This document shows, piece by piece, positions 19,701 to 38,633 of a DNA stretch of 61,593 bases. A program made the translations under genes and the position numbers. Numbering within the stretch: position 1 is the first letter of the stretch; the number at the start of each line of letters is the position of its first letter. Origin of the DNA: Pseudobdellovibrionaceae bacterium. Lineage in GTDB: Bacteria > Bdellovibrionota > Bdellovibrionia > Bdellovibrionales > Bdellovibrionaceae. Where the stretch lies: NCBI GenBank assembly GCA_016785955.1, contig JAEUWH010000102.1:1-61593 (forward strand), read 5' to 3'. The notes beneath the pieces were generated by a model. That model ran no database searches. It was given only the letters and a program-made list of their open reading frames with translations, and was not told the DNA's origin.

Positions 19701-19873
19701 TGCGGGCGATCGACAGCTATAAATTGGCGTTGCAACGGGCTTGGGAGTTTGAAACCTACAATGAAGACTATTTGAAAGCATTAAGGTATATGAATATCGT
19801 TGATCCCGTGAAATATTATTACGCGGACGAGATCAAGCAAGATGTTCGGTTTATTAATTGGATGGCGTTATGA
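16742..19873 (+). CDS. Giant periplasmic TPR protein, cluster A (paralogue of the gene at 31891)
   Basis: 1043 residues, GTG start, signal peptide cut after VFA (residues 1-21). The chain is a long series of TPR units: PQALYFLGFNYFELNDPKRG, ATYKGAWCLYRLGRHQEAL, ADMHFYYGELLYDSKRFDEA and AEYSANLLLDIF are examples. The 1019-residue protein of cluster B has the same length class, position and layout. Large TPR proteins of myxobacterial gliding clusters (GltD/GltI type) are the closest functional analogy. Final residues INWMAL; the stop overlaps the next ATG. Confidence 0.8.
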   Translation: MNKISVLTSLFIFTIAPQVFAKKTVGQLLSNVGLENRGAKIGAGNKGAYKIPSPSELRFENRTQHNLDAIKPTKSYEIMNSQNLDEIVAYEKILDEQISELFKLTKKFQNSDKRGELWVRLAELYVEKGSLVDYRRQKDFDTRLQHFNSGKSKVKPVLNNEEARSFFKKSVQLYEWFQKDFPNDPKIPQALYFLGFNYFELNDPKRGEKYYSELAEKHPQSPFVDEANFALGEYNFENENWKEAYKRYSPVIKNKKHNLNAMATYKGAWCLYRLGRHQEALKYMEHIIRLNKQAGDRDSRKQLKAKLEAEALRDIVVFYAAAGDSEKSAEYFNAMVGEKTNDYLEKLAYYYLDKGYKDAAHKTFKYLIDQRPNDPKAFEFQYQIVQVYFYARNSQTFKNELYRWIRDYGPSSSWYKANQGNAELMDNSVKLREKTLRNWTLQQHQTAQNSRTSNSQKVAAEGYQLYLNEFTNSPQTADMHFYYGELLYDSKRFDEAGVQYKWIVDNAPESKFYESAATNLLIAVEKSLPGEKDLVQRNTNSLEPVPLTPTVERFLKASTWYLEKLPNSKKAPEIKFRQGRLMYQFNYFEDAAKIFREIVQKYPKTKYAEYSANLLLDIFNLKKDYSGLEMAAGELLKNESLAGTKAGQEIKEVLEKASFKKGQDLEQEKKYKESADVFMAFAQQNAKSNLAITAYFNAGVNFEKANENEKAKNAYLQVLQSPQDNKDLKAKSKLFVAKLYQESALFDESIKLYKQLINETQKKETARNYLFNIAVMKEAMGQYQSAIKDYEEYAGMINSNKEKLEIVFLQAELLRKTEQWTKAQEKYIEYTDKAAASETYVEALYWVAYIHNRKGSSQAYSYEDKLVAMQKRISGSKSAKWAAIVKLKRAKETYSDFVEIKIPSNPEKQKKAVDDKVGLLNKLNKELNDVVKLNHPDSIISSLALLGEANDHMSNSILKSPLPKGLDAETEKQYKEGLPKLAEPFRLRAIDSYKLALQRAWEFETYNEDYLKALRYMNIVDPVKYYYADEIKQDVRFINWMAL

Positions 19874-20769
19874 AAAATAGAGCTATAATTATTTTAGTCG
19901 CTACCATGTCTCTTATTTTAGTTCATTGTTCTAGTAAAAATAAATCCAGCGGAAACGCCAATGTTGATGCTTCGACCGAAGTTCCTGGCACAATAATCGA
20001 AGAAAGTACTTCGCAAAGTCAACGAACCGTGAAACGAGCATCACAGCAGCCAAACCCGGCGCCGGTTACGGCAATTGCAAATACACAAAGGTCATCAACA
20101 CCCAGTAGCAATGCCTATGGAGCATTAAATCAACACATTAAAAATCAAGACGAAGAAAGTATCTTGAAAGAGGGCTCTTCATTATTGATGAAGAATCCAA
20201 ATGATACGAAGGCTATAAATGCTATGGCCATGTCATATTATAAAAGGGGACAGTATCCTTTAGCTAAAAACTTGCTTTTGCGAGCGTTGAAAATTGACGG
20301 TAGTGCCTATGAGGTTCACTCAAACTTGGGAGTTGTTCAGCTGGCTGTCGGTGAAAAAAATGAAGCGTTAAAGAGTTTTAAAAAAGCCATCGAATTAAAT
20401 CCAAACGATTACGTGAGTGCGAGTAATGCCGGTTCACTTTATGTAGTCGAGCAAGATTTCGATAAGGCGTCCGTCGTTTTGGAAATTGCCTATAGCAAAG
20501 GTTATAGAAATACCAAAGTGCTAAGCAATTATGCAATTGCGCTGACGGCGACAGGTAAGTATGACAAAGCCGATAAAATTTATCGTGAAGCCTTAAAAGA
20601 AAACTCGAATAACAAAGAAGTTTTATTTAATCACGCTATTTTATTGATACATTTTTTAAAAAGAAATGAAGAGGGCTTAGAGATTGTTAAGAAGTTAAAG
20701 TTTCTAGGTGTGCCTGAAGAGGGACGCCGTCGTCTTCAAGAGTTAGAAAAAATAGCGGAGAAAAAGTGA
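19870..20769 (+). CDS. TPR lipoprotein, cluster A only
   Basis: 299 residues from ATG 19870, which overlaps the preceding stop (ATGA). Signal peptide with lipobox LVHC followed by Ser-Ser, then a ~60-residue Ser/Thr/Pro-rich linker and three to four regular TPRs: KAINAMAMSYYKRGQYPLA, YEVHSNLGVVQLAVGEKNEA, YVSASNAGSLYVVEQDFDKA. Lipid anchoring without a +2 Asp suggests the outer membrane. It resembles AglT/GltE of Myxococcus in architecture. Cluster B has no counterpart, so either it serves both complexes or cluster B does without it. Confidence 0.8.
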   Translation: MKNRAIIILVATMSLILVHCSSKNKSSGNANVDASTEVPGTIIEESTSQSQRTVKRASQQPNPAPVTAIANTQRSSTPSSNAYGALNQHIKNQDEESILKEGSSLLMKNPNDTKAINAMAMSYYKRGQYPLAKNLLLRALKIDGSAYEVHSNLGVVQLAVGEKNEALKSFKKAIELNPNDYVSASNAGSLYVVEQDFDKASVVLEIAYSKGYRNTKVLSNYAIALTATGKYDKADKIYREALKENSNNKEVLFNHAILLIHFLKRNEEGLEIVKKLKFLGVPEEGRRRLQELEKIAEKK

Positions 20770-21065
20770 TGAAAATTTTTATTACACTACTTATGTTTCT
20801 GGCTTTTATAGTTGGACCTTCGTTTAGCTTCGCACAAAGCTCGAGCGTGACTAATAGATCTAACAGTGTAAAAATCAAAGATAAAAAGGCAACCTTGAAT
20901 TTCGAAGATGAACTTGTTGAGGGTTCAACTCAAAAGCCAGAGTTGTTTTATTTGTTTCAGAAAAAGAATTTTAACTATAAAAGGCTGATCAAGTTGAGAG
21001 AAAATTTTCTTCCTGAACTCAGGAATAACGCTGAGAATGTACAGAGGGTGAGGGGATCTAATTGA
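20769..21065 (+). CDS. Small secreted protein with an L-(N/D)-FE-x-E motif, cluster A
   Basis: 98 residues from ATG 20769 (TGATG overlap with the previous stop; GTG 20766 is the alternative). Signal peptide ends near SFAQ. The mature part contains ATLNFEDELVEG...KPELFYLFQKK and matches the cluster B protein at 34947: shared pattern L-(N/D)-F-E-x-E-(L/V)-(V/I)-E-G-x4-P-(E/D)-L-F. I know no named family. It always sits just before the FHA/AgmX gene, so it is probably a periplasmic partner of that protein's C-terminal domain; a GltF-like role is conceivable but unproven. Confidence 0.7.
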   Translation: MKIFITLLMFLAFIVGPSFSFAQSSSVTNRSNSVKIKDKKATLNFEDELVEGSTQKPELFYLFQKKNFNYKRLIKLRENFLPELRNNAENVQRVRGSN

Positions 21066-23158
21066 GCCAACCCATTATTCTTAGAGTATTTAAATCGAAC
21101 CAGCTTAAAGAAGTTAAGCAATTTGATATTGATCAAGTTGTTGTTGGTAGCAACCAAGACTCGCAATTAAACTTGGTAGATGAAGGTGTTTCGCCTATTC
21201 ATTGTTTAATCGAAAAACGAGATGCGGGCTATTACATTTGTGATTTGGGATCTAAAAGTGGAACATTCAAAAATGGTCAGGCCATTTTGGATGAACCAAT
21301 TTCTTCGGGGGATGAACTAATTATTGGTCCCTTCAAAGTCGTATTTTCTGTGGGAGTGCCTAAACCCGTCGGGCAGCCTAAAGAGATAGACAGTGCTGTT
21401 GCTGTAAAGGCTGCCGAGAAGCCCATGGCGGCACCGTCTCGAGATGACAAAACTCTAGCTTCTGAGAAAGTCATTGACGATGATAAAACTCAAAACAGTC
21501 AAAAATTTCAGGATAAATCGTCGGCCGTACCGTCTTTGTCTCAAATAAAAAAACCAGAGATTGTAGGTAAAGGATTTCAGCGGCCCACGACAAAGAAGAA
21601 AAAATATTCTTTTGCGCCGACCGGTGAAATTAAAGATTTAAAATCTTATTTAACACCAACGCGTGGGAGTCTAGTTGAAGTGAATGTCGCTTGGAATGAG
21701 AGAATCATTCAAACGTATCACTATCGCAACAAAGGTGTCTTTAGAACTAGCCTGTCTCAAGAGAGTGGGTTGAACTTGCCGACACCATCTATTCCAGCGA
21801 ACTGGCCATTGGTGGAATTTGGGGCGCAGTTAAAAATACTGGTTCCATCCGGTTCGGAAATTGAAATTATTACGTCTAAAGCATCTACTAAAGAAGATGT
21901 GTTAGTTGGAACGGGTAAAGCCATTCGTATGGCTCAGGGTACACAAGTTCGAGTCGATCAGAACGAACTGTTGTGGGTACGTCTTCCAGATAAAAACTTA
22001 ACTTTGTATGTTCGATTTGTTGAGTCGACGCCATTGGTTCCATTTGCTCCGTTGTTACTGTCTAGTTCGGAGTTAGGTAGCTTATTGATTGCTGTGGTCA
22101 TTTCTGGAATGTTGGCATTTTATGTGGCGACGATGACGTCTAAATTTCAACCTCCCCAAGAAGAGGAGAAATCCACCTATACGGCGCAGGTACTGTTTAA
22201 CGAAACAAAAGTGAAAGAGGAAAAGATTCCACCGCCGCCGCCGAAACCTCCGATTGAACCTGATAAGCAAAACCCACCACCACCGGAGCCACCAAAAGTG
22301 GTGAAAATGGCGGAAGAGAAAAAAGAAGCGACTCAAAAAGGGGACGTTAACGTTAAAAATAAAGGTCAGCAAAATCAGGTTGCCAAACGGGCTGTGGAAG
22401 TTGCTCCTAATCCTAATACACAAAATCGTCCTAAGAAATTCACGTCGGTCAAGCAAGGTGGCGCTGTTAAGATTGGTCAAGCGGCTGGTGGAAACGCACA
22501 AAGTGCTCAGCCTAAAGATGTTAACAAAATGGGGTTGTTCAGTGCATTTGGCTCGGGTGGAGTAAGATCAAAATTGGATCAAGCGTACCAAGGAGCCGGC
22601 GATATTTTAGGAAATGCCGACAAGGCCACGGGCTCTACAGGTATGGGTGAAAATAGAGACGGTGATGACTTGGGTTCTCGATTTAAGGACACCGGCGCGG
22701 GAGGAAAAGGCACGGCTACAGAAGGTATTGCCGGCATCGGAACCAAGGGACGTGCTGGTGGAACTACAAGTTATGGAAGTACCGAAGGCTTTGGCGATAA
22801 GACTTCAGTGGCGATTGTAACGGGTGGTTCGGAAGAGGCATTTCAGGGTTCGATTGATAAAGAAGCTGTTCGTAGACGGATCAAGCATAATATCAATTTA
22901 ATTCGCGGGTGTTATAATCAAGAGCTGAATCGATTAGACAAAGGTGGTCGGCGCTTACTTGAAGGAAAAATCGTTTTGAAGTGGGAAATTGTGGATAACG
23001 GGGTGGCGAAAAACGTTCGCGTAGCAAGTTCGACATTAAACAATCAGGCAATTGAAAAATGTATTGCCGAGCGTTTAGCGACGATTGTTTTCCCTGATCC
23101 GCCGAAGGATACAACAGCAGAAGTGTCGTATCCGTTCGTGTTTAAGAATGAACAATAA
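21062..23158 (+). CDS. FHA and TonB/AgmX-like inner-membrane protein, cluster A (GltG-like)
   Basis: 698 residues; TTG start overlapping the previous stop (TTGA) after a G-rich Shine-Dalgarno. Order: N-terminal cytoplasmic FHA domain (about 20-95; VVGSNQD, SPIHCLIEK, DLGSKSGTFKNGQ), a second folded region to about 330, one membrane helix (338-360), a proline-rich stretch (PPPPPKPPIEP, PPPPEPPK), a Gly-rich region, and a C-terminal AgmX/PglI-type TonB-like domain (about 598-698; IRGCYNQELNR, GKIVLKWEI, FPDPP). This matches GltG/GltJ-type gliding proteins that link cytoplasm to periplasm. The FHA domain keeps the Ser-x-x-His and Ser-x-x-Gly-Thr elements but lacks the usual Arg after the first Gly. 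Confidence 0.85.
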   Translation: MSQPIILRVFKSNQLKEVKQFDIDQVVVGSNQDSQLNLVDEGVSPIHCLIEKRDAGYYICDLGSKSGTFKNGQAILDEPISSGDELIIGPFKVVFSVGVPKPVGQPKEIDSAVAVKAAEKPMAAPSRDDKTLASEKVIDDDKTQNSQKFQDKSSAVPSLSQIKKPEIVGKGFQRPTTKKKKYSFAPTGEIKDLKSYLTPTRGSLVEVNVAWNERIIQTYHYRNKGVFRTSLSQESGLNLPTPSIPANWPLVEFGAQLKILVPSGSEIEIITSKASTKEDVLVGTGKAIRMAQGTQVRVDQNELLWVRLPDKNLTLYVRFVESTPLVPFAPLLLSSSELGSLLIAVVISGMLAFYVATMTSKFQPPQEEEKSTYTAQVLFNETKVKEEKIPPPPPKPPIEPDKQNPPPPEPPKVVKMAEEKKEATQKGDVNVKNKGQQNQVAKRAVEVAPNPNTQNRPKKFTSVKQGGAVKIGQAAGGNAQSAQPKDVNKMGLFSAFGSGGVRSKLDQAYQGAGDILGNADKATGSTGMGENRDGDDLGSRFKDTGAGGKGTATEGIAGIGTKGRAGGTTSYGSTEGFGDKTSVAIVTGGSEEAFQGSIDKEAVRRRIKHNINLIRGCYNQELNRLDKGGRRLLEGKIVLKWEIVDNGVAKNVRVASSTLNNQAIEKCIAERLATIVFPDPPKDTTAEVSYPFVFKNEQ

Positions 23159-23187
23159 ATTTTTTATATAATTTTAAGGAGGATACC

Positions 23188-23853
23188 TTGAACCCTATAC
23201 AACAATGTGACCCAAATAATTTTATTGCCCGTGCTTTCTGTGAGGGTGGATGGGTAATGTACGTGATTGCCGTATTTGCAATTTTAACCGTTATTTTGGT
23301 CGTCGAGCGTATGATGAAGTTGAACACGCTTTTGGTAAATAAAAAAGACTTTGCCGATGTCATCTATCGTATGGTGATCAGTGGCGATATTCGTCAAGCG
23401 ATTGCCTACTGTGATCAACGGCCATCGCCCATAACTAATACGGTAAAAGCCGGATTAGTTCAGGCGTTGAACAAGCGTCCCGATGAAGAAGTGCAAGTGG
23501 CTATGGATGCTGCAGTACTGCGGGAAATGCCAAAGGTTGAAGGTTGGACTGCATTTTTGGCGGTGTTTGGAAACGTGGCCGTGTTGGCCGGACTTTTGGG
23601 TACGATCATTGGTATGATCGGTTCATTCCGTGCGGTTTCAGAAGCGGATAATGCCACCAAAGCCCAATTGTTATCGCAAGGTATTTCGCACGCATTAAAT
23701 TGTACGGCATTTGGACTTCTGGTAGCGATTGTAGCGATTGTTTCTTACGGTATTTTCCAACATCAAATTCAAAAAACTGAAAATGAAGTTGTGGAGACGA
23801 GCATGTCTCTTTTAAATTTAGTGGTCGCTAATCGAGACAAAATAAAGGATTAA
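23188..23853 (+). CDS. TolQ/ExbB/MotA-family motor protein, cluster A (AglR-like)
   Basis: 221 residues from TTG 23188, with an excellent Shine-Dalgarno (AAGGAGG, 5-base spacing). Three membrane helices (about 18-40, 120-142, 160-182). The helix 2-3 signature is FGNVAVLAGLLGTIIGMIGSF and ...LLSQGISHALNCTAFGLLVAI. Forms the proton channel stator with TolR-type partners; two follow directly, as in AglRQS of Myxococcus. Paralogue: the TolQ-type gene at 29097. The first ~15 residues contain two Cys (QQCDP, FCEGG), unusual for the family. Confidence 0.9.
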   Translation: MNPIQQCDPNNFIARAFCEGGWVMYVIAVFAILTVILVVERMMKLNTLLVNKKDFADVIYRMVISGDIRQAIAYCDQRPSPITNTVKAGLVQALNKRPDEEVQVAMDAAVLREMPKVEGWTAFLAVFGNVAVLAGLLGTIIGMIGSFRAVSEADNATKAQLLSQGISHALNCTAFGLLVAIVAIVSYGIFQHQIQKTENEVVETSMSLLNLVVANRDKIKD

Positions 23854-23854
23854 A

Positions 23855-24331
23855 ATGGCTCAAATTGATGGTGGCTCGGGTCGAGGTCGAGCGGTCAGTG
23901 TAGAATTGAATCTGGTACCGTTCATCGATTTGATGAGTGTGTTGATTACATTTCTATTAATTACGGCCGTGTGGACTCAGGTTTCGATGATTCAAATTGG
24001 AAGTTCACTTTATGCCAAAAAAGATGACTCCCAGCAGGCACCTCAATTGACTCCCAATTCGGATATTGCTTTGAAAGTTGACGTAAAACAGGATGGATAT
24101 GTTTTAACGGTGGGCACTCAAATCATTTCATTGCCTAAAGCAAATGGCAGCTATGACTATCAGGGTTTGGTTGCTCAGCTACAACGAATAAAACAGCTTT
24201 ACCCAGAAAAAGTTGATGGAATTGTAAGTATGTCCGATGATGTCCCTTATGAAAATTTAATCAATACAATGGATCAATTTTTAGTGGCTGGTTTTCCCAA
24301 TATTTCAATTGCGACAGGGGGGCCTAATTAA
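23855..24331 (+). CDS. TolR/ExbD-family motor protein, cluster A (first)
   Basis: 158 residues. One membrane helix at about 22-42 with the proton-carrying Asp 25 (VPFIDLMSVLITFLL); periplasmic domain to the C-terminus. AAAGGA precedes the ATG, one base after the TolQ stop. The next gene starts inside its stop codon (TAATG). Corresponds to AglQ/AglS in position. Confidence 0.9.
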   Translation: MAQIDGGSGRGRAVSVELNLVPFIDLMSVLITFLLITAVWTQVSMIQIGSSLYAKKDDSQQAPQLTPNSDIALKVDVKQDGYVLTVGTQIISLPKANGSYDYQGLVAQLQRIKQLYPEKVDGIVSMSDDVPYENLINTMDQFLVAGFPNISIATGGPN

Positions 24332-24921
24332 TGCCAATTCGTAAACCCGGCGAGCGTTTTCGTTATCATAGAATTTTAAGTCGAAAAAAAGGTAAGCGTT
24401 CGGTGACAGCCTTGTTGTCGCTGACGGCCATGGTTGATATGTTTACGGTTTTGGCGATTTTTCTTTTGCAAAATTATAACGTTAAAGATTTTATCGTTTA
24501 TACACCAAAAGAAGTTGTGTTGCCGAAAGCGCAATCAACTAAGGAATTAAAACCCGCATTCGTTATAACGATTTCGAGCAAAGAAATATTGTTGGATAAG
24601 ACTCCGGTAGCTAGCTTCGACGAAGTCAAAGGCCAAACGGAATGGTTGATTCAAGCACTGTACGATCAACTTCAGCAAGGGTTGGTTAAATCTAAACAAG
24701 AATATGAAAGTAAGCTTCAAAGCCAGTTGAAAAATGTTGTTGATAATGCGCGGGGCGAAAAAGAAGATGATCCATTTGCTTGGAAGAAAATCACAATCCA
24801 ATCAGATAAGGATATTGATTTTCTAACTGTAAAAAAAGTCATGTACACCGTGTCTGAAGCTGGCGCGGGTGAAATTAACTTTGCGGTTGTGAAGAAGACT
24901 GATAAAGAAATAGCGAAGTAG
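24331..24921 (+). CDS. TolR/ExbD-family motor protein, cluster A (second)
   Basis: 196 residues with a longer basic N-terminus (residues 1-23) than its partner, one helix with Asp 36 (AMVDMFTVLAIFLLQNY), and a periplasmic domain of ~150 residues containing a Lys/Gln-rich insertion (about 110-150). Two TolR proteins per TolQ follow the AglRQS arrangement of a hetero-oligomeric stator. Last gene of cluster A; lptC starts 57 bases on. Confidence 0.88.
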   Translation: MPIRKPGERFRYHRILSRKKGKRSVTALLSLTAMVDMFTVLAIFLLQNYNVKDFIVYTPKEVVLPKAQSTKELKPAFVITISSKEILLDKTPVASFDEVKGQTEWLIQALYDQLQQGLVKSKQEYESKLQSQLKNVVDNARGEKEDDPFAWKKITIQSDKDIDFLTVKKVMYTVSEAGAGEINFAVVKKTDKEIAK

Positions 24922-28358: not shown

Positions 28359-29081
28359 ATGATAACCATCAAATATGTTTTACTATTTTTGAGTTTGTCT
28401 TTTTTTGTACAGGCGCAAGCTCCGATACAATCACCCAACGTTGATAGCAAAGAAAAGAAAAGAGTTTCGTTAGATCGTTCGCTTGAACCGTCGGTTTCAG
28501 AGGAGATTAGTTCTTTGTTTGAAAACGTTGTGGCGGTACAAAGAAAAGCGAAAGTGAAATCGGGAAAATTTTTGTTTGCTCCGTATTTGTCATTCGATTT
28601 TTCGGATTCGCCGCAAACGATGTATGCAATGAATTTAAATTTGGGATATGCGGCCGGCGAGTTTTGGGAAATCTATTTCAACTATGTGCCTTCCTATATA
28701 AACAACGAGCGAAGTATTGCAAAAAAAGTCAGATTGTTGCCCGCATATCCTGACGGAACGGTGCCATTTTTATATGTCGAAAAAGCAAAAAATTCATATG
28801 GTATTGAAGTTAATTGGACTCCTGTTTACGGAAAAGACTCTTGGGGGCCGTATGGTATCATTCGATCTGATACGTTCCTAAATATTGGCATAAGCCGAAT
28901 TAACTATGAGGTGCATAGCGCTTATAAAACGAAATTAGCTATGGGGAAAACATTTTTTCTTTCAGATTATTGGAATTTACGGCTTCAAGCCGGTGGGTCT
29001 TTCTTAGAGACTTACAACCAAGAAAAGAAAGAAATGATTGTGATTGGCTTACTTGAAGGTGGATTTGTTTATTATTTTTAA
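28359..29081 (+). CDS. Outer-membrane beta-barrel protein, Glt-like cluster B
   Basis: 240 residues, signal peptide cut near VQAQA. After a ~40-residue polar N-terminus the chain has barrel-like strands and ends in an aromatic (GGFVYYF). NWTPVYGKDSWG aligns with LWVPIYGKLTWF of the second cluster A barrel. No Shine-Dalgarno is visible. It opens cluster B, whereas cluster A opens with two barrels. Confidence 0.75.
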   Translation: MITIKYVLLFLSLSFFVQAQAPIQSPNVDSKEKKRVSLDRSLEPSVSEEISSLFENVVAVQRKAKVKSGKFLFAPYLSFDFSDSPQTMYAMNLNLGYAAGEFWEIYFNYVPSYINNERSIAKKVRLLPAYPDGTVPFLYVEKAKNSYGIEVNWTPVYGKDSWGPYGIIRSDTFLNIGISRINYEVHSAYKTKLAMGKTFFLSDYWNLRLQAGGSFLETYNQEKKEMIVIGLLEGGFVYYF

Positions 29082-29096
29082 TAAGGAGTTTTTTCA

Positions 29097-29735
29097 ATGT
29101 TTATATTTAGTTCTTTAGAGGTTCTGTTCAAAGAGGGTGGTCTGACGGCATTTTTCATTGTCGGCAGTGGATTGGCATTAATTATTTTGGCTATCACCAA
29201 AATTAACTATTTATATTTTCGTCTTCGTCCGGCCGGCGACAATAATTTGAAAGAAATCAGTAAATTGGTTCTAAAGAAAGAGTACACAACGGCAATACAA
29301 GTATGTAATGGCGCTAGAAATGTTCCAGAATTTGATGTTATCAAATCGGGATTAATGGCTGTTGATGGTGGTCGTGAAGCGATGAAATCATCTTTAGGTT
29401 CTGCCGTTGTGGAAGTAATGAAAAATGCCGAGAAAGGAATTCAATTTATTTCTTTGATTGCCAGTGTGGCGACGTTGTTAGGTCTTTTGGGTACAATTTC
29501 GGGTCTTATGAAAACATTCGCGGCCCTAAAAGATATCGATCCTGCAAAGAAAGCCGAGTTGCTGGGTACAGGTATCTCGGAAGCTATGATCGCAACGGCA
29601 GCGGGTTTAATTGTCGGTATTTCGGCCATGGTGGTGCATACCCTATGCACGCAAAAAATAGATCAAATCGTTGGTCAGTCTAAAAAGACAGGTTTTGATT
29701 TGATTACTTTAGTTGAGCAAAGCGAAAGGTCATGA
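29097..29735 (+). CDS. TolQ/ExbB/MotA-family motor protein, cluster B (AglR-like)
   Basis: 212 residues, Shine-Dalgarno AAGGAG. Three membrane helices; the family signature is IASVATLLGLLGTISGLMKTF and GISEAMIATAAGLIVGISAM. Paralogue of the TolQ-type gene at 23188, with the same LLGTI block, but here the TolQ-TolR-TolR trio precedes the TPR genes instead of ending the cluster. Stop overlaps the next ATG (ATGA). Confidence 0.9.
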   Translation: MFIFSSLEVLFKEGGLTAFFIVGSGLALIILAITKINYLYFRLRPAGDNNLKEISKLVLKKEYTTAIQVCNGARNVPEFDVIKSGLMAVDGGREAMKSSLGSAVVEVMKNAEKGIQFISLIASVATLLGLLGTISGLMKTFAALKDIDPAKKAELLGTGISEAMIATAAGLIVGISAMVVHTLCTQKIDQIVGQSKKTGFDLITLVEQSERS

Positions 29736-30256
29736 GTTTAGAATTTGCAGAACTGCATCGCAGACACACTCCCGAGCCAGAGCTGGTGCCAATTTTGGAT
29801 GCCTTGACGTGTATTATATTTTTCTTGATGTACACGACAACGTTTATGGAATTAACCAGCTTAACATTGCCCCCATCAGCCGTCAGTGTTGTGTCGAAAA
29901 GTGATTCAAGCGCCGGTGTTCCCTTGATTCCGAAATTGTTTATCGATATTAAGGATCAGACATTGGTCCTTAAGTTAAAATGGATGGGACAGGCTCCAGG
30001 CAACGTGGTTCGCAAACTCGAAAGAACAAAACCTGAACGTTATTCTGCCGAGCTAGAAAAAACAGTTAATGAAATAGTCACAGAATTTGCAAAACGCTTT
30101 CCAAGCGAGAAGTCATTACAAATAGCGATTGCTGATCGTGGCACATATCAAGAACTTATCTCTATAATGGATGGAATAACCAAATCAATTCCAGATGTGG
30201 TGCTACTTTCTCCTGATGACGTAAAAAACATGAATGAGGAAGACAATGGATCTTGA
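29732..30256 (+). CDS. TolR/ExbD-family motor protein, cluster B (first)
   Basis: 174 residues. Single helix with Asp 23 (VPILDALTCIIFFLMY). The periplasmic domain of about 130 residues ends in a run of charged residues. Fixed by ATGA overlap with the TolQ gene. The end overlaps the next gene by 11 bases. Confidence 0.88.
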   Translation: MSLEFAELHRRHTPEPELVPILDALTCIIFFLMYTTTFMELTSLTLPPSAVSVVSKSDSSAGVPLIPKLFIDIKDQTLVLKLKWMGQAPGNVVRKLERTKPERYSAELEKTVNEIVTEFAKRFPSEKSLQIAIADRGTYQELISIMDGITKSIPDVVLLSPDDVKNMNEEDNGS

Positions 30257-30719
30257 GGCGATAGAGAATCAGCGAAGATATCCGTTAACTCTGCAATTGG
30301 CTCCCATGATTGATATTTTTGTATTGATCATCGTATTTCTTTTGAAATCAACAATCGTTGCGGATGTGTCGATTGTATTTCCGCGAGAGATGCATCCCCC
30401 CATGAGTAAAAGTAGAGAAGGCTTAGAAACTTTCCCAGAAGTCGTGGTCACGGAAACAGAGCTTATTGTTGGTATTATTCACGAGAACATTGGTTTAACG
30501 GATATTGATCGCATGAGTGAAGATAAGGTTGTTGATCTTAAAGCAAAAGTGGAAGCCTACGTGAAATCTAAAGATGAAGCGGTTCGATCTCAGGCGACCC
30601 ATGTTAATTTGATTACATTCCGTGGAAACAACTATAAAAATGTTTTCACCGCTGTTAAGTTTTTAAGGCGCATTGGATTTCAATCTGTCGCTTTTATTGC
30701 CGAGGGAGAGGGTTCATGA
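30246..30719 (+). CDS. TolR/ExbD-family motor protein, cluster B (second)
   Basis: 157 residues from ATG 30246, which has GAGGA five bases upstream; the ATG at 30234 has no Shine-Dalgarno. Helix with Asp 23 (APMIDIFVLIIVFLLKS). Periplasmic domain to the end. Both TolR proteins of each cluster keep the helix Asp, so both stators should be able to conduct ions. Confidence 0.88.
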   Translation: MDLEAIENQRRYPLTLQLAPMIDIFVLIIVFLLKSTIVADVSIVFPREMHPPMSKSREGLETFPEVVVTETELIVGIIHENIGLTDIDRMSEDKVVDLKAKVEAYVKSKDEAVRSQATHVNLITFRGNNYKNVFTAVKFLRRIGFQSVAFIAEGEGS

Positions 30720-31894
30720 GCTTTCGTTGGCTCTTAAAAAGCGCTGTTATTCTGACTATTTTTTTAGTGTCGGGCCATGTGAAAGCGCAAAGTCTGCTTA
30801 AGACAATAGAAACTTTAGAGAAAAACTCGGACGATGTTGCCATTCGTATTTTGATAAGAAAGAACTTTAAGCGAAAACTAACGGTTAAAGAATGGTTTGA
30901 GATTCGAAAAATTTTGATTCGAAGACCTAAAGTTGGATTTGATGCGATCGCGGCATGGGATCGTCAATTGTCTTTGAAGGCTACGGCCTTAGAGAAAGAG
31001 TCTGATACCGTATTTAAATTTTTAGAGAAAGCTGATGAAATGGCACTGAATCGGGACTTTGAGAAAAGTTTTGAAATGTATCAGCGGGCAGCCAAATATT
31101 TGAGAACATCTAATAAAGGTCGTATCCCAAAAGGAAATCAGCAAATATACCTAAATATATTACATCAAATGGCACGGACCTTATATGCACAAAAACGATT
31201 TCGAGAAGCCGTCGATGTATACACTTGGATTCCGCCTCTTTATCCACAAATTCGTCAGGTACTATTTGAAAAAATGTGGGCTTCATTCCGTGCGGGCAAA
31301 TACGATATGGCATTGGGGGCCATTGCTTCGCAGCAATCAGGATTCTTTTCCGAGTTTTTACATCCCGAAAGTTACTTATTAAAAATATATATCTTCAAAC
31401 GTTTGTGTCGTAAGCGAGACCTCGCATTTACAATTGAGGCGATTAAAAATTATTTAGCTAGCTTAAAGAGTGGAAAGTTTAACTATTTGGAATGGGCTCG
31501 CTCTGATCTTTACTATATGTCTTTAGCTCAGCTAGTAGAATCAGAAAAAAATAACTCGAAAGCGCAATTGCAATTTGTAAGTCAAAAGGAACGTGATGAA
31601 GAAATTAGACGTGTCACGGATTCCTTGAAAATTCGCTTTAAAAACTATCGGCCGACACTTCAGGCACAGTTAGAGCGAGTCTACGGCTACGCTTCTTTAG
31701 CCTTGAGCAATGATCAGGAGTTTTTGAAGCCACTTTCAGATTTGCCGGAGCCAAAAGTTTTAGAGAAGAAAGGTTTTGAGTTATGGCCGGCTGGCGATGC
31801 CGAGGAATGGTTAGATGAAATTGGTAGTCATGTCTATATTGGGTCGTCGGAATGCAAAAATGAAAAAATACCAAGCGAGACTATAAAACAATGA
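30716..31894 (+). CDS. Periplasmic TPR protein, cluster B (paralogue of the gene at 15190)
   Basis: 392 residues, 127 shorter than its cluster A paralogue. Signal peptide ends near VKAQ. TPR-like helices (LNILHQMARTLYAQKRFREAV, FEKMWASFRAGKYDMALG) lead to the shared C-terminal block (KGFELWPAGDAEEWLDEIG, then YIGSSEC). The conserved end carries the signature W-L-D-E-(V/I)-G and probably docks a common partner. ATGA overlaps on both sides. Confidence 0.8.
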   Translation: MSFRWLLKSAVILTIFLVSGHVKAQSLLKTIETLEKNSDDVAIRILIRKNFKRKLTVKEWFEIRKILIRRPKVGFDAIAAWDRQLSLKATALEKESDTVFKFLEKADEMALNRDFEKSFEMYQRAAKYLRTSNKGRIPKGNQQIYLNILHQMARTLYAQKRFREAVDVYTWIPPLYPQIRQVLFEKMWASFRAGKYDMALGAIASQQSGFFSEFLHPESYLLKIYIFKRLCRKRDLAFTIEAIKNYLASLKSGKFNYLEWARSDLYYMSLAQLVESEKNNSKAQLQFVSQKERDEEIRRVTDSLKIRFKNYRPTLQAQLERVYGYASLALSNDQEFLKPLSDLPEPKVLEKKGFELWPAGDAEEWLDEIGSHVYIGSSECKNEKIPSETIKQ

Positions 31895-34800
31895 GCAATA
31901 TAGAGAAATTTTTATTTAAAATTTCTTTCGGTCTATTGTTGACCCCGTCATTATTTGCTCAAACGCAAATGCCGTCCTCCAGTACGCCGAATCCAGCAGC
32001 CTCTAAGCGTTTAGACAGTGCTGGTCTTAAGGGCTCTGATAACTTGAAAAAACCTGACGAACTGAAGGCCTCTAATCCAAAATCAAAAAAAGAGACGTTA
32101 ACTTCGACGGAACTAAGTAATGAGGATCCGTCCAAATTAGAAAAGCAGATTAAGGCGATTCAATTGATTCTTCGTAATGAAAAGGATCGAAATAAGAAAA
32201 TTAATTTGTACTTACGACTTAGCTATCTGCATGTATCGATTGCTAAAAAATATGGTGTTAAGCGTGTTAAAGGCGAAAAAATCAGTTCAGTAGAAGCAAA
32301 GCATTTAGATGAAGCTGAAAAAATCCTGTCGTTTTTGCTAAAGAATGTTGAAAATAATAAGCGAATGCTTTCAACGTTATATAATATCAAGGGACTTGTT
32401 TCTTATGAGTTAGACCAGCCAGAAAAAACCGTAGAAAATTTTTTGAAATCAATTGAGTTGAACCCTAAAAATAGCCAAGCCGAGGTTATGTCAATTTTTA
32501 TTGGGGAGTACTATTTTGAAATAGAAAAATACGACGATGCGATTAAATTCTATCAAATGTTTTATGTGCGTATGAATAAAACTCAAAAAGCACTAAGTGA
32601 CTATAAAGTCGCCTGGTCCTATTTGAATAAGAAAGAAATCGACAAAGCCGAATTACAATTTATCAAAATTATTAAGGAACAGCATGATCGTGGTATTGCG
32701 GAAGACTCTTTCAAAGATTTAGCATTTATCCTGACTCAAAACAAAGATGAATCCGTATTAATTAGTAAAGTAAACGGTTTTTTGACTCATCCGGGTCTTA
32801 AAGGTCGCTTGTATTATTATTGTCTATTGTTCTATTTGCAAAACTCAAAAGGAGAGCCCAAAGACTTGCTTTTTAAAGAAGTTCTGGGAATTCAAAAAGA
32901 TCCTTTGGAAGTTTTAAAGATTATGAGTTTGAAAGTGAGCTTTGAAAAGAAAGACATTCCATCGCCCAGTATGGTGAATGCGGTTTTCAGTCTTGATAAG
33001 CGGCTTAGTGTGGTAAAAAAGGAAGTCAAAGAAGAGTTTTTTAAGAAAGAGGCTTTTCAGCTTGAAGAGGATTCTGAGTTTAATATTCGAACTCATATTG
33101 ATGCTTATGCTGGACGCCTAAAAACAGAAGATAATATTCCCAAATTGCAACTAGGGGAGTTGGCGGTTAGATTGATCGGGATTCACATGACGTGGTTTCC
33201 GCAATCCAAGCGTCGCGTGTTATTGTATCACTTGTGGATTGATACGTGTGTAGATTTGAAGAACTCATCATGCCTGTTTAATTTGGAGACACGATTTAAG
33301 AACGAAAAGGAAACATCAGAGACTCGCGAGTTCTTGAAGAAAATCCAAATCGAAATTTTGGCTTTATACGATGAAGCCTATGAAAAAGATAAGGTCAAAC
33401 ATCAGGCCGCCTTTGTGGGCAGGTTGAAAACATTTATTCAGTCTTTCCCGAACGACCCACTGTCATTGAAAAGTCAGAAGCGACTTTTTGGTATTTTGTA
33501 TACAGAAAAGAAGTATGCAGAAGCTTTACCAATTGGAGAAGCCATATTTAATGAAGAGAAAACAGTGGATAATGTGCAAAAAATTCTGCTGATTTTCTTT
33601 GAATTACAGCGCTACAGCGATGTTCAAAGCCATCCTGTGTATTCGGGATTTATTTCTGCAGAAATTACTGAAATCAAGCGGGAAGCCAGTTTGAAGTCGG
33701 CCATGCTCAATTCCAATGCCGGAAATTTTCAAAACTATGAAAACGACATTAAAGCTTATTTAAAGACCAATCCATCAGAAGAAAAATCTGCGGTGGTCTA
33801 TTCGGACTACTTTAAAAAATTAGTCGAGCTGGGGCAGTTTGCAAAGTTAGAGCAAGAATGGAAGGGTTTGGCCCCGACGATCAAAACCCGTCCCGCATTT
33901 GCGTCGATACGATCTCAGTTTTTTGATCAGTCATTGAATACAGGTGACCTGTATCATTTTCCTGAATTTTGGGTCTATGGAAATGATAAGAATGCAAATT
34001 ACCAAATTTTGATCAATCGGACTATTCATAATCAAAAATTGACAACTGGAGATCTGGCCGAATTAGAAAAACAAGAGCAAGATAAGCGGCTTTATTTGCT
34101 AAATATTGTTTCGTATACAGATCCTGAAATGGTTTATTCATATCTTTACACTCGTCCCAAACTTTCTAGCGAAGAAAAACGCCTTGCATACTCTTCTTTA
34201 CTGTTAGCCAGCAAGCAATTGAGCCCAATATTCAGTGCTGATCAAATAAAACCATTCAAGGAGCTGGTCTCGGACACTTTATTGGAAGATAAAGAGGTTC
34301 CAATCGAGAAGAATTTTAAAAACGTCATTTTCCCAAATTCGAAAATGAGTGCAAAAACGTATGAATCATATGTTGTGAACAACGTCGACAATGTTAAGTT
34401 TCTTAGGAACAAAGTTTTGAAAGCTGTAACATCGGCGACTGCAAAACAGAAAGTGCGACTTCTTGAAAAGATGGCAGAAACCGAGGCGAAGATGGCCGAC
34501 TCAATCAGAAACTCGCCGCCTCCGGCAGGACTTTCGTCGGCCCAGTTAGCTGAATATCAAAATGGCTTAGGCGAGATGGCCAAAGAGTACGATAATCAGT
34601 CGGGAAACTTTAAAAAAGCAAAAGTAGAAATAGAGACAAAACTCAGCAAAGACGCGGAAGAGGAAAAAAGTAGATTGTTGCCATTGAAGACGGCTGAAGG
34701 TTGGACGGTGAATCATAATGAGAATTTCAAAAAGCTGAAAGATATTTACGAGAAACTTTCGGTAAAAGCGAGTATCATATATTTAGATAATCTACTTTCT

Positions 34801-34950
34801 AGCAAGAAAATTGATCCAGTGGAATACTACAGCTTAAAAACCTGGGTGCTGTTTAAGTTTGGTATGTCGGACGCGCACAGAAAAATATATCGTTCGGAAC
34901 TTGAGTCCATGGGGCAGCAGTCATTGGTCGATAAATGGAAGGCATTATGA
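31891..34950 (+). CDS. Giant periplasmic TPR protein, cluster B (paralogue of the gene at 16742)
   Basis: 1019 residues. Signal peptide (cut near LFAQ), a Ser/Lys-rich linker (25-70), then TPR repeats that become degenerate in the second half (examples: TLYNIKGLVSYELDQPEKTV, IFIGEYYFEIEKYDDAIKF, SDYKVAWSYLNKKEIDKAE). The C-terminal region has RNSPPPAGLSSAQLAEYQNG, comparable to LKSPLPKGLDAETEKQYKEG in cluster A. That shared segment is good evidence of common descent. Stop overlaps the next ATG. Confidence 0.8.
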   Translation: MSNIEKFLFKISFGLLLTPSLFAQTQMPSSSTPNPAASKRLDSAGLKGSDNLKKPDELKASNPKSKKETLTSTELSNEDPSKLEKQIKAIQLILRNEKDRNKKINLYLRLSYLHVSIAKKYGVKRVKGEKISSVEAKHLDEAEKILSFLLKNVENNKRMLSTLYNIKGLVSYELDQPEKTVENFLKSIELNPKNSQAEVMSIFIGEYYFEIEKYDDAIKFYQMFYVRMNKTQKALSDYKVAWSYLNKKEIDKAELQFIKIIKEQHDRGIAEDSFKDLAFILTQNKDESVLISKVNGFLTHPGLKGRLYYYCLLFYLQNSKGEPKDLLFKEVLGIQKDPLEVLKIMSLKVSFEKKDIPSPSMVNAVFSLDKRLSVVKKEVKEEFFKKEAFQLEEDSEFNIRTHIDAYAGRLKTEDNIPKLQLGELAVRLIGIHMTWFPQSKRRVLLYHLWIDTCVDLKNSSCLFNLETRFKNEKETSETREFLKKIQIEILALYDEAYEKDKVKHQAAFVGRLKTFIQSFPNDPLSLKSQKRLFGILYTEKKYAEALPIGEAIFNEEKTVDNVQKILLIFFELQRYSDVQSHPVYSGFISAEITEIKREASLKSAMLNSNAGNFQNYENDIKAYLKTNPSEEKSAVVYSDYFKKLVELGQFAKLEQEWKGLAPTIKTRPAFASIRSQFFDQSLNTGDLYHFPEFWVYGNDKNANYQILINRTIHNQKLTTGDLAELEKQEQDKRLYLLNIVSYTDPEMVYSYLYTRPKLSSEEKRLAYSSLLLASKQLSPIFSADQIKPFKELVSDTLLEDKEVPIEKNFKNVIFPNSKMSAKTYESYVVNNVDNVKFLRNKVLKAVTSATAKQKVRLLEKMAETEAKMADSIRNSPPPAGLSSAQLAEYQNGLGEMAKEYDNQSGNFKKAKVEIETKLSKDAEEEKSRLLPLKTAEGWTVNHNENFKKLKDIYEKLSVKASIIYLDNLLSSKKIDPVEYYSLKTWVLFKFGMSDAHRKIYRSELESMGQQSLVDKWKAL

Positions 34951-35348
34951 AAATCGTATTAGTGGGGCTTTTTATTTTGCTAGGCACGCTCAGATCTTTG
35001 GCTCAAGAGACTGATAATCTGGAGAGCTTAACTGTTCCCGAGGATTTGAAGCCGGCAGCGCAAAGAAAGGCGGAAACAGATTTGTCGTTACCGTCAGAAA
35101 AAACGGCATCGGCAACGATCGTAAAATCAAATAGCAGTGACTCAAAAAAAGCGGCGAAAGAGAATGTGGGAGCTATTCTAGATTTCGAAGGCGAAGTGAT
35201 TGAAGGAGAACGACGCCGTCCAGATTTGTTCCTTCAAATTTCAATTGATAATATTAAGTTTGATTCGTTGATCTATAACCGGGACGATTTCAACGACTAT
35301 TTAGAAGTCGATAGAAAAAGTCGCACACGATTTTTAAAGATGAAATAA
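34947..35348 (+). CDS. Small secreted protein with an L-(N/D)-FE-x-E motif, cluster B
   Basis: 133 residues from ATG 34947 (ATGA overlap). Signal peptide to about SLAQ, a low-complexity linker (30-75), then the same ~45-residue end domain as the cluster A protein: AILDFEGEVIEG, RRRPDLFLQI, ending in a basic tail. Located directly before the FHA/AgmX gene in both clusters. Function unknown. Confidence 0.7.
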   Translation: MKIVLVGLFILLGTLRSLAQETDNLESLTVPEDLKPAAQRKAETDLSLPSEKTASATIVKSNSSDSKKAAKENVGAILDFEGEVIEGERRRPDLFLQISIDNIKFDSLIYNRDDFNDYLEVDRKSRTRFLKMK

Positions 35349-35349
35349 T

Positions 35350-37224
35350 ATGAAAGTAATTCTGTTTAAGAAAAATCAAATAGAAATTGGTCGATTGATT
35401 CCAGATAAACGAACGATGCTGGTCGGACGTGCTCCTGTTTGTGATTTGGTCATTCGGAAAAAGGATTTAAAGCCGATCCACTTTATCATTGAATGGATGG
35501 GTGAAGGAAGTTTTGATCCTTATGTTGGTTTTTGGTCGATTATTGATATTTCTTATACCGACGTAAATGTAAAACGAGATTCTTACAGCGGGGAAGCCTC
35601 GATCTTGACTGAGACTCCGATTATAATTGGTGATTTTCAAGTTTCAATCGAAGACGAAAAGCTGGCTGCTTCGCCCATCTCTAAGGGAACGCTGACGCGT
35701 TCGTTAGATATCGAGAATGCCGAATCAGGTACGGTTAAGCCAGAGATGGATCGTGTTCTTGAATTGGTAACTTACAATACAGAAATTGATGTTGTCACAT
35801 CTGTAAATCATTTCCCAAAGGACCTTTTGCAAAAGGGAATTAAAATTAGTTCCTTACCTAAAGTGAATTTTTCCTATTCGGCTCAGGCGGCAAATCTGTT
35901 AACCATTGAAAACATGGGTGATGAAAATGTATTGGATCTTTATAACCGCGCTGATCGAATCATTGAAAAGTTCAAAAATGTTAATGATAAAATCACAGTC
36001 GATGAAGATGATTTCTATCTTCTGTATTCTCCGGAAAATGCTTATTACATCCGCTGGGTAAACAAGCATGAGGTGCATACTCCACCGTCCGCATGGAAAA
36101 AAGACCCGGTTGTTGTTACCTTAATTATCGTGACTATTTTTATGTTTTTCCTAGGTATTGGGATTAAGTTTATTGATAGGCCAATAACAACAGAAATTCC
36201 TAAACCTCAGCGCGTTGCCAAAGTTGAAGTCCTTGATTTTGCCCCCAGACCGGAAGAGGCGCCGCCATTGCCAGTTTACGAGCAAGAAGTGAAAAAGGAA
36301 GAAATTAAAACTCCACCCATTGAGAAGCCAGAGGAGATGAAAGCGGCTAAACCGGTAGAAAACCCCGAGGAGGCTCCGCAAAAATCTTCTACGAAAGATG
36401 CTGATAAAACAGCCGCCCAGAATCAGAAAGTGATTCAGCAGCAGGGTAAGCGGGCCACCATAAAAAACATTGATGAAAATCTTGAACTTGCTCAAGGCTT
36501 GAATCAAAAAGGTGAGATCAAAAATGTAAATTCAGTAGGGCTACTTGGAAAGTTGGGGGGCGCAAAAAAAATCGGTTCTGGTCTGAGTGCAGAGGCTGTA
36601 ATTGCTAAGGTTAAGCCGGCAGATTCTGCTTCGGGAGAAGCGGGTAAGGTTCAAGTTTTGCAGCCGCCAACAGGCAAAGTTAATCTAACCAACACGGGGC
36701 GCACTCAGGCAGACGATGACGATGGCGCCGGTTTATCAGCCGCTTCGACAACATTAAAGATGGACAACGTGGCAAAAGGAACAAAAATTTCGGGATTGGC
36801 TTCGTCTAAAGCTACTGGCAGTGTCGGAACGGCAGCCTTCGGGGGTAGTCAAAAAGAAGGTGGATCTGATTCGATCCAATCGCTTGGAGGCTCGGTATCC
36901 TTGGAAACTAAGGCGATGGAAGTTCAGGGTGGTTTAACCAAAGAACAGGTTCGACAGGCCATTTCTGATAACAAGCGTGCGCTCAGAAACTGTCACGAGC
37001 AATTCCTTACTTTTAAAAAAGATTTGGGTGGGCGTATTGTATTGCGCTGGAAAATCAATGGTGAGGGCCCGGTAGACACGATCAGCACACAAGCGTCGAA
37101 CACGGGGTATCCTAATTTTGACTCATGTGTAAACGACATCATCAAAAAAATCGTTTTTCCAAAAGCACCAAACGGGAATTCTACAATCGTTATTTATCCG
37201 TTCTTATTTCAACCAAAAAAATAG
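35350..37224 (+). CDS. FHA-like and TonB/AgmX-like inner-membrane protein, cluster B (GltG-like)
   Basis: 624 residues. The N-terminal domain has the FHA layout (MLVGRAPVCDLVI, KPIHFIIEW) and keeps Gly-Arg, but replaces the Ser of SxxH with Lys and lacks the S-x-x-G-T and N-G elements, so phosphothreonine binding is doubtful. One membrane helix lies near 254-275 (VVVTLIIVTIFMFFLGIG). The periplasmic part is Pro/Lys/Glu-rich, then Gly-rich, and ends in the AgmX-like domain (about 530-624: QAISDNKRALRNCHEQF, GGRIVLRWKI, FPKAP). Paralogue of 21062; last gene of cluster B. Confidence 0.85.
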   Translation: MKVILFKKNQIEIGRLIPDKRTMLVGRAPVCDLVIRKKDLKPIHFIIEWMGEGSFDPYVGFWSIIDISYTDVNVKRDSYSGEASILTETPIIIGDFQVSIEDEKLAASPISKGTLTRSLDIENAESGTVKPEMDRVLELVTYNTEIDVVTSVNHFPKDLLQKGIKISSLPKVNFSYSAQAANLLTIENMGDENVLDLYNRADRIIEKFKNVNDKITVDEDDFYLLYSPENAYYIRWVNKHEVHTPPSAWKKDPVVVTLIIVTIFMFFLGIGIKFIDRPITTEIPKPQRVAKVEVLDFAPRPEEAPPLPVYEQEVKKEEIKTPPIEKPEEMKAAKPVENPEEAPQKSSTKDADKTAAQNQKVIQQQGKRATIKNIDENLELAQGLNQKGEIKNVNSVGLLGKLGGAKKIGSGLSAEAVIAKVKPADSASGEAGKVQVLQPPTGKVNLTNTGRTQADDDDGAGLSAASTTLKMDNVAKGTKISGLASSKATGSVGTAAFGGSQKEGGSDSIQSLGGSVSLETKAMEVQGGLTKEQVRQAISDNKRALRNCHEQFLTFKKDLGGRIVLRWKINGEGPVDTISTQASNTGYPNFDSCVNDIIKKIVFPKAPNGNSTIVIYPFLFQPKK

Positions 37225-37301: not shown

Positions 37302-38633
37302 CTAGGCGGCCGAAATTTTTGCCAGGTCGTCCAGCCATTGACTCAGTTTTAGTAAGTTCCTTTCGTCTGCTTTGGCAAAGGAAAATCGGCAAGGATTTTT
37401 CATGTCGCCGACCGGATGACATCTGAAAAGAATGCTTTTTTTGCCGGTGGGATCGGACAAATAGACTTCGATTTCAGAGTTTAAGATATCTTGAGGGATT
37501 GTATTTTCGACATAAATTCCCCCTAGCGAGATATCTTTGGTAAATGTCATGAACGCTTTTGATTTATTTGTAATGATTGTTCTTAGTCGACCTTTGATGC
37601 GAGGATAGCGACGATTGTGGCGCTTGGTTGCGGTGTCTTGGTTTTGTTGTTGAGCTGTGGCTTCGTTGGGGACCTGTGGGGTCAGTTCGGGTGGAAGTGG
37701 TGTTTTGGTTTTTGTCGTTGCCATGTTGACCGCAGGGGGTTGGGTGTGGGCAGCTCCAGTGAGTGTGATTTCCTCAGAGGGCGAGGTGGTCTTTGCTGTT
37801 TGGTCAAACGAAGGTCCTGTTGTGGCCGTAACTGTATTTTCGGTCGATAGTGCAGTTGTAGAGGTTCGCGTTTGATCAAAATCACGCCCCGACGTATCGA
37901 TTTTGGCGGTGCGATCGGATGGAAATGGAGCCGCAGAGGTTATGGTTTTATCAAAATCTGGTGAGGGTGGCGAGTTTATAAGCGTCTTGTCTGCAACATT
38001 TGGTGCGTGTACCGTGACGGTTTTTTCAAAGTCCTCAGTCGACGTGTCAATGATAGCAGTTTTGTCAGAAATTAACTGAGTATTGCCTGCGACGGTTTTG
38101 TCGAAATCATTTGCGGATGTATCGACGCGCACAGTATTTTCAAATTTGTTATGAGCTGCTGTGGCTGTTTTATCTATATCATCAATTTTTGTTTGTTCGG
38201 AAATAATTTTAAAATCTGACGATGTTCCGTTCATGTGTTTATTTTTAATGGATTCATCAAAATCAAAAACTTGCCCAGAGAAATTAGAAATTACGAATTC
38301 AGTTTTAATAGGCTCAGCATCATTTGGTAATGGCGGCGGAGTCAGGGGTGGTGTCTCGGTATATTCTAGAACTTCAAAATCGTTTTTGCCTTTTTCGCGT
38401 TTTGTGAACAAATCTTGCCATGGAGGCATTGGCTGATCGTCGGTCCAAGGAATAGCCATCCATTCTTTGATTTCAAGGGCTTGGCTGACTTGCTTCCATT
38501 GAGCTAACCCTGGATACCAGCAGAACCAATTATGTAAGTCATGAGCATGCTTCAATTTATGTACCATTTCTAATCGTGAAAGATTAAAAAAAGTTGCTTT
38601 TGAATCTGTATGGACTAAGTGATATTTGGACAT
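37302..38633 (-). CDS. GYF-domain and PilZ-domain protein with a Thr-repeat linker
   Basis: 443 residues, no signal peptide; AAAGGGA precedes the ATG. Residues 1-60 match a GYF_2-type domain (LHNWFCWYPGLAQWKQVSQ). Residues 340-437 are a PilZ domain with the c-di-GMP motifs RYPRIKGR (R-x-x-x-R) and DISLGG ((D/N)-x-S-x-x-G). The long middle (about 95-335) is disordered and carries 11 evenly spaced acidic-x-Thr motifs. GYF domains also occur in AgmX/GltJ of myxobacterial gliding. Adjacent and convergent to cluster B, it could couple c-di-GMP to the motor. No function has been shown for it. Confidence 0.85.
   Translation of the reverse strand: MSKYHLVHTDSKATFFNLSRLEMVHKLKHAHDLHNWFCWYPGLAQWKQVSQALEIKEWMAIPWTDDQPMPPWQDLFTKREKGKNDFEVLEYTETPPLTPPPLPNDAEPIKTEFVISNFSGQVFDFDESIKNKHMNGTSSDFKIISEQTKIDDIDKTATAAHNKFENTVRVDTSANDFDKTVAGNTQLISDKTAIIDTSTEDFEKTVTVHAPNVADKTLINSPPSPDFDKTITSAAPFPSDRTAKIDTSGRDFDQTRTSTTALSTENTVTATTGPSFDQTAKTTSPSEEITLTGAAHTQPPAVNMATTKTKTPLPPELTPQVPNEATAQQQNQDTATKRHNRRYPRIKGRLRTIITNKSKAFMTFTKDISLGGIYVENTIPQDILNSEIEVYLSDPTGKKSILFRCHPVGDMKNPCRFSFAKADERNLLKLSQWLDDLAKISAA
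37797..38174 (-). repeat. 12-13-residue Thr-motif repeat (25-residue double unit) inside the GYF-PilZ gene
   Basis: Residues 154-279 contain Thr at 156, 167, 180, 192, 205, 217, 230, 242, 255, 267 and 279, each preceded by an acidic residue two positions before (DKT, ENT, EKT, DRT, DQT). Alternate copies begin F-(D/E). Four 25-residue double units (176-275) are nearly in register. The regular spacing is seen directly; the idea that these are phosphorylation/FHA sites is inference. Confidence 0.85.

Follow-up and report, generated by a model that had tools for sequence, protein, structure and literature searches.

In Bdellovibrio bacteriovorus, many PilZ receptors are served by few diguanylate cyclases, and the outputs of cyclic di-GMP (c-di-GMP) signalling are strikingly separate (PMC3271064). 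Hobley et al. present the PilZ gene Bd1482, located at the 5' end of a gliding operon of strain HD100, as a candidate c-di-GMP receptor for gliding (PMC3271064); the identity of the gliding receptor has so far been a proposal only. A further level of control is known for the c-di-GMP synthase DgcB (Bd0742), which harbours an E-K-Thr core in a disordered tail segment that is read by the FHA domain of the same protein (PMC6733907). This FHA domain was crystallised with the phosphopeptide NSDNLEK(pT)SIVASDT, in which the phosphothreonine is preceded by Glu at position -2 and Lys at -1 and followed by Val at +3; a hydrophobic residue (V/I) at +3 is important for binding, and the ordered ligand comprises eleven residues, corresponding to about 30 Å (PMC6733907). 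The kinase that phosphorylates DgcB is not known (PMC6733907). The DgcB tail has been compared with those of GarA and OdhI, where an acidic-x-Thr phosphosite is likewise bound by an FHA domain (PMC6733907).

A GYF domain within a gliding machinery occurs in GltJ/AgmX of Myxococcus xanthus, whose GYF domain (7z3c) also constitutes the best PDB profile match in the present analysis. GltJ, a component of the motor complex, contains a zinc-ribbon domain and is not known to have a PilZ domain. Moreover, the SDTD repeats of human MDC1 are bound by the FHA domain of NBS1, so that an acidic-Thr array serves as an FHA docking platform.

The present work concerns a GYF-PilZ protein whose two domains are connected by a linker with an array of threonine motifs. 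It is encoded in the window, i.e. the whole analysed stretch of 61,593 nucleotides from a Pseudobdellovibrionaceae bacterium (Table 1). Each of its components is of a known kind. With DgcB it shares the E-K-Thr core, the location in a disordered segment and the link to c-di-GMP signalling, but it possesses twelve sites instead of one, lacks an FHA domain of its own, and has its array joined to a predicted c-di-GMP receptor instead of a synthase. Bd1482 resembles it as a PilZ gene located at one end of a gliding-motility operon; compared by description, a linker and a GYF domain are not among the features given for Bd1482 in the available extract (PMC3271064). GarA and OdhI differ in that a single tail is bound by the protein's own FHA domain in the context of metabolic regulation, while MDC1/NBS1, which acts in eukaryotic DNA repair with another kinase and other partners and shares no homology, serves as an analogy only.

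Table 1. Features of the GYF-PilZ locus, in window coordinates
Feature	Coordinates	Strand	Basis
Gliding-motor-like cluster: envelope protein, TolQ/TolR-like, TPR, FHA-TonB-like	28359..37224	plus	ORFs; adjacency in seven genera
FHA-TonB-like membrane protein, FHA with K-P-x-H replacing S-R-x-H	35350..37224	plus	residue comparison with DgcB
GYF-PilZ protein, 443 aa	37302..38633	minus	ORF; same-genus orthologues
Divergent GYF_2-like domain, residues 1-60	38454..38633	minus	hhalign, family Pfam matches, AF2/Foldseek
Linker element FSGQVFDFDES...DFKII, residues 118-144	38202..38282	minus	aligned across same-genus orthologues
Array, twelve [DE]-x-Thr motifs, residues 153-293	37755..38177	minus	spacing, shuffle, codon and profile tests
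PilZ domain, residues 338-443	37305..37622	minus	PF07238; motif check
RRYPR, residues 341-345	37599-37613	minus	PilZ RxxxR motif
DISLGG, residues 367-372	37518-37535	minus	PilZ [DN]xSxxG motif

Domain architecture

Profile-profile comparison, the Pfam matches of family members and a confident small AF2 model point to a divergent GYF domain at the N-terminus of the protein. Since it yields no direct Pfam match, it was subjected to profile-profile comparison, in which it matched the GYF_2 domains of its own genome with an hhalign probability of 97%; in addition, PF14237 (GYF_2) is matched by 7 of the 13 proteins of the family. Among PDB profiles, the above-mentioned 7z3c comes first, although the match is weak (E 0.032). 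The AF2 model of the N-terminal domain reached a pLDDT of 83, and its top Foldseek matches are largely GYF domains (GIGYF1/2, GltJ, SMY2) but weak as well (E 0.1 or worse, Z 4-5). The GP[YF] signature is absent from the domain. Candidate GYF ligands, selected by sequence, are a PPPPPKPP stretch in the product of gene 21062 and the TPPPLP motif of the protein itself. For the full-length protein, a single-sequence AF2 prediction was unusable (pLDDT 35), and a PDB sequence search gave no match.

The C-terminus is a PilZ domain with an intact c-di-GMP motif, and by homology and motif it is predicted to bind c-di-GMP. PF07238 scores 20.7 bits in the protein scan, slightly under the cut-off of 22.5, but 24.3 bits and thus over the cut-off in the genome search, and both RRYPR and DISLGG are retained in the full-length homologues. 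The two domains named in an earlier, sequence-only reading of this DNA are supported at the level of sequence. By Pfam match, GYF_2 and PilZ are also combined in three further proteins of the same genome; the same holds for the C104 paralogue, whose linker contains LDKTAV and FEKTV. The recurrent combination (L051, L052, L053 and L057 on C7, C123, C105 and C104) includes one protein with two GYF_2 domains. In a literature search of incomplete coverage, no publication that names both a GYF domain and PilZ was found.

Gene neighbourhood

The gene is oriented convergently with the last gene of the gliding-motor-like cluster. Family members are located at the 3' end of the same cluster in the genera g1, g10, g7, g17 and g18, and at its 5' end in g3 (genome G034) and g5, so that the linkage is conserved in seven genera and in more than one arrangement. 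The linkage to the gliding cluster is supported by sequence, and since the neighbourhood is kept despite the change of position, a functional tie to the gliding cluster is suggested. As a check on orthology with Bd1482, PilZ genes at most 1.5 kb from TolQ-like genes were sought in four more distant genomes, and none was found there. The window comprises two gliding-motor-like clusters with TolQ/TolR-like, TPR and FHA-TonB-like genes near each other, at 15190-24921 and 28359-37224.

The threonine array of the linker

The linker carries twelve [DE]-x-Thr sites, whose threonines are residues 156, 167, 180, 192, 205, 217, 230, 242, 255, 267, 279 and 290, with gaps of 11, 13, 12, 13, 12, 13, 12, 13, 12, 12 and 11 residues, i.e. 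mostly an alternation of 12 and 13. Eleven evenly spaced threonines between residues 156 and 279 had already been reported, and these are found again at matching coordinates, residues 154-279 corresponding to 37797-38174, all of them with D/E at -2 and gaps of 11-13; T290 (EEITLTG) extends the series as a twelfth site. A DgcB-type ligand has an acidic residue at -2, a basic one at -1 and Thr at 0. In the linker, D/E occupies -2 in 12/12 sites and the described acidic-x-Thr context thus holds throughout, with the minor correction that K/R stands at -1 in 7 of the sites, the other five having N, Q or I. Phe is present at -3 in 6/12 and V/I/L/Ala at +1 in 11/12; V/I occurs at +3 in 4/12, and +2 is mostly Thr instead of V/I. 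The 25-residue double units that had been claimed are visible at residues 178-202, 203-227 and 228-252, though with a nucleotide identity of 37-52% between units. A tandem repeat at the DNA level was rejected, as the units are too diverged and TRF reports nothing at the array.

The array is real and exceptional within the genome sample. A chain of twelve sites at 11-13 spacing occurred in none of 20,000 composition-preserving shuffles of the linker, the maximum being 5, and no random placement out of 200,000 was as even as the observed gaps (SD 0.72). In a sample of 424 proteins from this genome, 365 of them encoded in 398 kb beyond the window and 59 called within it, the next longest [DE]-x-Thr chain has 3 sites, and elsewhere the motif as such occurs at background frequency without enrichment. 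N-terminal of the array, the linker contains a short conserved element, FSGQVFDFDES...DFKII.

Conservation and origin of the array

A search of 80 genomes detected homologues in 31, a count that includes the genome of the window itself. The five same-genus orthologues all have linkers enriched in [DE][KRNQH]T (shuffle p 0.0008-0.013), and the cadence exceeds chance only in G004, G005 and G001. G004 and G005 keep the series FENT-FEKT-TExT-FEHT with gaps of 13, 12 and 12, and compared with them the window protein has about three additional 25-residue units; the truncated protein of G001 keeps gaps of 13 and 12. G002 and G003 retain the motif enrichment and lack the cadence. Outside the genus, linkers are shorter and mostly contain 0-2 sites. 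Judged by the comparison with homologues proposed along with the earlier description, conservation of the array extends to the genus, with motif and cadence present in three orthologues, one of them truncated, and motif enrichment without cadence in G002 and G003. Because relatives outside the genus mostly have 0-2 sites, the array is not required for the core role of the family; from these alignments it is a genus-level expansion, enlarged in this species, and no family-wide feature. A relative from another genus (L016, genome G011) has a Thr-rich linker of its own (DEVTKTVEVTVTNFEVTEVTEVTAIG), perhaps an independent expansion.

Where two motifs share an amino acid, the codon is identical in 38% of cases, whereas the codon usage of the gene predicts 44%. 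Synonymous codons at the motifs are thus randomised, and the array is accordingly old and no product of a fresh DNA duplication. Its spacing is explained by duplication. The retention of the motif, with D/E at -2 and Thr at all twelve sites in spite of randomised codons, suggests selection.

Relation of the motif to kinases and FHA domains

On sequence grounds, the linker motif is best read as the threonine motif that is linked to kinases and FHA domains in this lineage, with looser FHA determinants at +2/+3. In the own genome, [DE][KR]T is found at most 60 residues from FHA domains six times, against 0.9 expected in this post hoc count. Because that pattern had been noticed before counting, a second test used 29 FHA proteins of the bacterial family, 26 of them from outside the genus. 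The motif flanks their FHA domains 19 times, against 2.2 expected and a maximum of 8 in 2000 shuffles, though these are not independent events, as many are orthologous and belong to two protein families (DgcB-like and double-FHA). Hanks kinases are present in 41/41 genomes searched. Their activation loop contains [DE]xT in 26/29 cases read from other genomes and 4/4 in the own genome, which may reflect simple inheritance inside one kinase subfamily. Many Hanks kinases of the family, moreover, carry [DE][KR]T(V/I)V in the juxtamembrane linker (DDKTVVT, SEDKTIVT, EDRTVVT and similar).

When a profile is built exclusively from sites that flank FHA domains or lie in kinase linkers of other genera, it ranks the twelve linker threonines at a median within the top 0.7% of the 6179 Thr of the genome sample, compared with 52% for the remaining Thr of the protein; this score is partly built in, since the training sites were picked by [DE][KR]T. 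The fairer test, restricted to positions +1 to +4, places the linker threonines at a modest median within the top 10%, and the twelve sites, being related repeats, do not represent independent tests. With regard to +3, the DgcB-like protein of the own genome has Ala at this position of its own site (NEKTMVASD). A Hanks kinase of the same genome (L037, C22:17097-17900 and downstream) is fused to a C-terminal PilZ domain; its activation loop, DEKTRIGT, matches the linker motif, and by its sequence the kinase is possibly subject to c-di-GMP control. A literature search of incomplete coverage found no phosphoproteome for Bdellovibrio.

As readers of the linker, the sequence-only reading had pointed to the neighbouring FHA proteins. 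This part of the argument is not supported: the three FHA domains of the window, encoded by genes 8309, 21062 and 35350, lack the Ser and Arg that hold the phosphate in DgcB, feature GS or K-P, S-P or S-D at the corresponding Arg/Ser contact positions, look unable to bind phosphate and were rejected as readers. The FHA-TonB-like protein at 21062-23158 contains DDKTLA and DDDKTQ directly after its FHA domain. For gene 35350, the loss of phosphate contacts is common to orthologues in several genera, and its FHA domain is read as a pseudo-FHA inside the gliding cluster. Canonical FHA domains are encoded elsewhere in the genome, including a DgcB-like FHA-GGDEF protein on contig C62, and an FHA domain of DgcB type is the likelier reader given that those of the window are devoid of phosphate-contacting residues. 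With this correction, the idea of a possible phospho-linker is better supported than when it was put forward; the sequences back the resemblance of the linker threonines to the lineage's kinase/FHA motif.

Proposed mechanism and alternatives

Building on the array, the domains, the motif conservation and the gene linkage, which are established at the level of sequence, we propose that the linker serves as a multisite phosphothreonine array and give this reading slightly less than an even chance. Once phosphorylated by a Hanks-type kinase of the lineage, the [DE]-[KRNQ]-Thr sites would be docked on by an FHA domain, either one of DgcB type or another canonical one encoded in the own genome. Through its GYF domain, the protein would be tethered to a proline-rich component of the gliding machinery, and its PilZ domain would read c-di-GMP, whereby the kinase input and the c-di-GMP input would be combined at the gliding motor. 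Possibly, an FHA-GGDEF synthase as the source of c-di-GMP would be brought beside the PilZ effector as its sink. In this scheme, phosphorylation, FHA docking and c-di-GMP binding are predictions based on homology and matching motifs; how the motor is affected and which partner the GYF domain binds are matters of speculation. As the DgcB ligand spans eleven residues, a spacing of 12-13 would be near the tightest that seats one FHA domain per site. The narrower version, in which the multivalent array recruits a DgcB-type FHA-GGDEF protein to the receptor and translates kinase input into local c-di-GMP at the motor, is an unlikely elaboration by our estimate.

Phosphorylation might also act without any FHA reader, the bulk charge of the array altering the distance between GYF and PilZ domains or masking one of them. 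A kinase-type context that is strong at -2/-1, FHA determinants that are loose at +2/+3, and kinases in every genome searched would fit such a role; the same motif is, however, tied to FHA domains across genera, and bulk charge has no need for an even spacing of 12-13; we regard this explanation as rather improbable. We place on the same low level a nearly neutral growth of repeats, in which a 75-nt unit was duplicated in a disordered linker and subsequently drifted. Copy number does differ strongly among species, the window protein having about three more 25-aa units than its orthologues in G004/G005. The cadence is absent from G002 and G003, and sites are few or missing in most other genera. 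Nevertheless, all 12 sites keep Thr as well as D/E at -2 despite a DNA identity of 37-52% between units and randomised motif codons, the motif is enriched in all same-genus orthologues, and the linker matches an FHA/kinase motif that was derived independently.

Somewhat less probable still is that F-[DE]-K-T-hydrophobic repeats act unphosphorylated, as short linear motifs that dock a non-FHA motor or scaffold partner multivalently. Phe at -3 in 6 of the 12 sites and V/I/L/Ala at +1 in all but one would suit a docking peptide, but the invariance of Thr at position 0 (12/12) and the recurrence of the motif beside FHA and kinase domains argue against it.

Implications for c-di-GMP signalling

The finding supplies a candidate gliding receptor that adjoins motor genes. 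With a threonine motif that is common to the kinases and FHA proteins of the lineage, the GYF-PilZ protein is one protein where both inputs, phosphorylation and c-di-GMP, could meet. If the phosphothreonine array proposed here is true, physical docking would be a source of specificity in c-di-GMP signalling.
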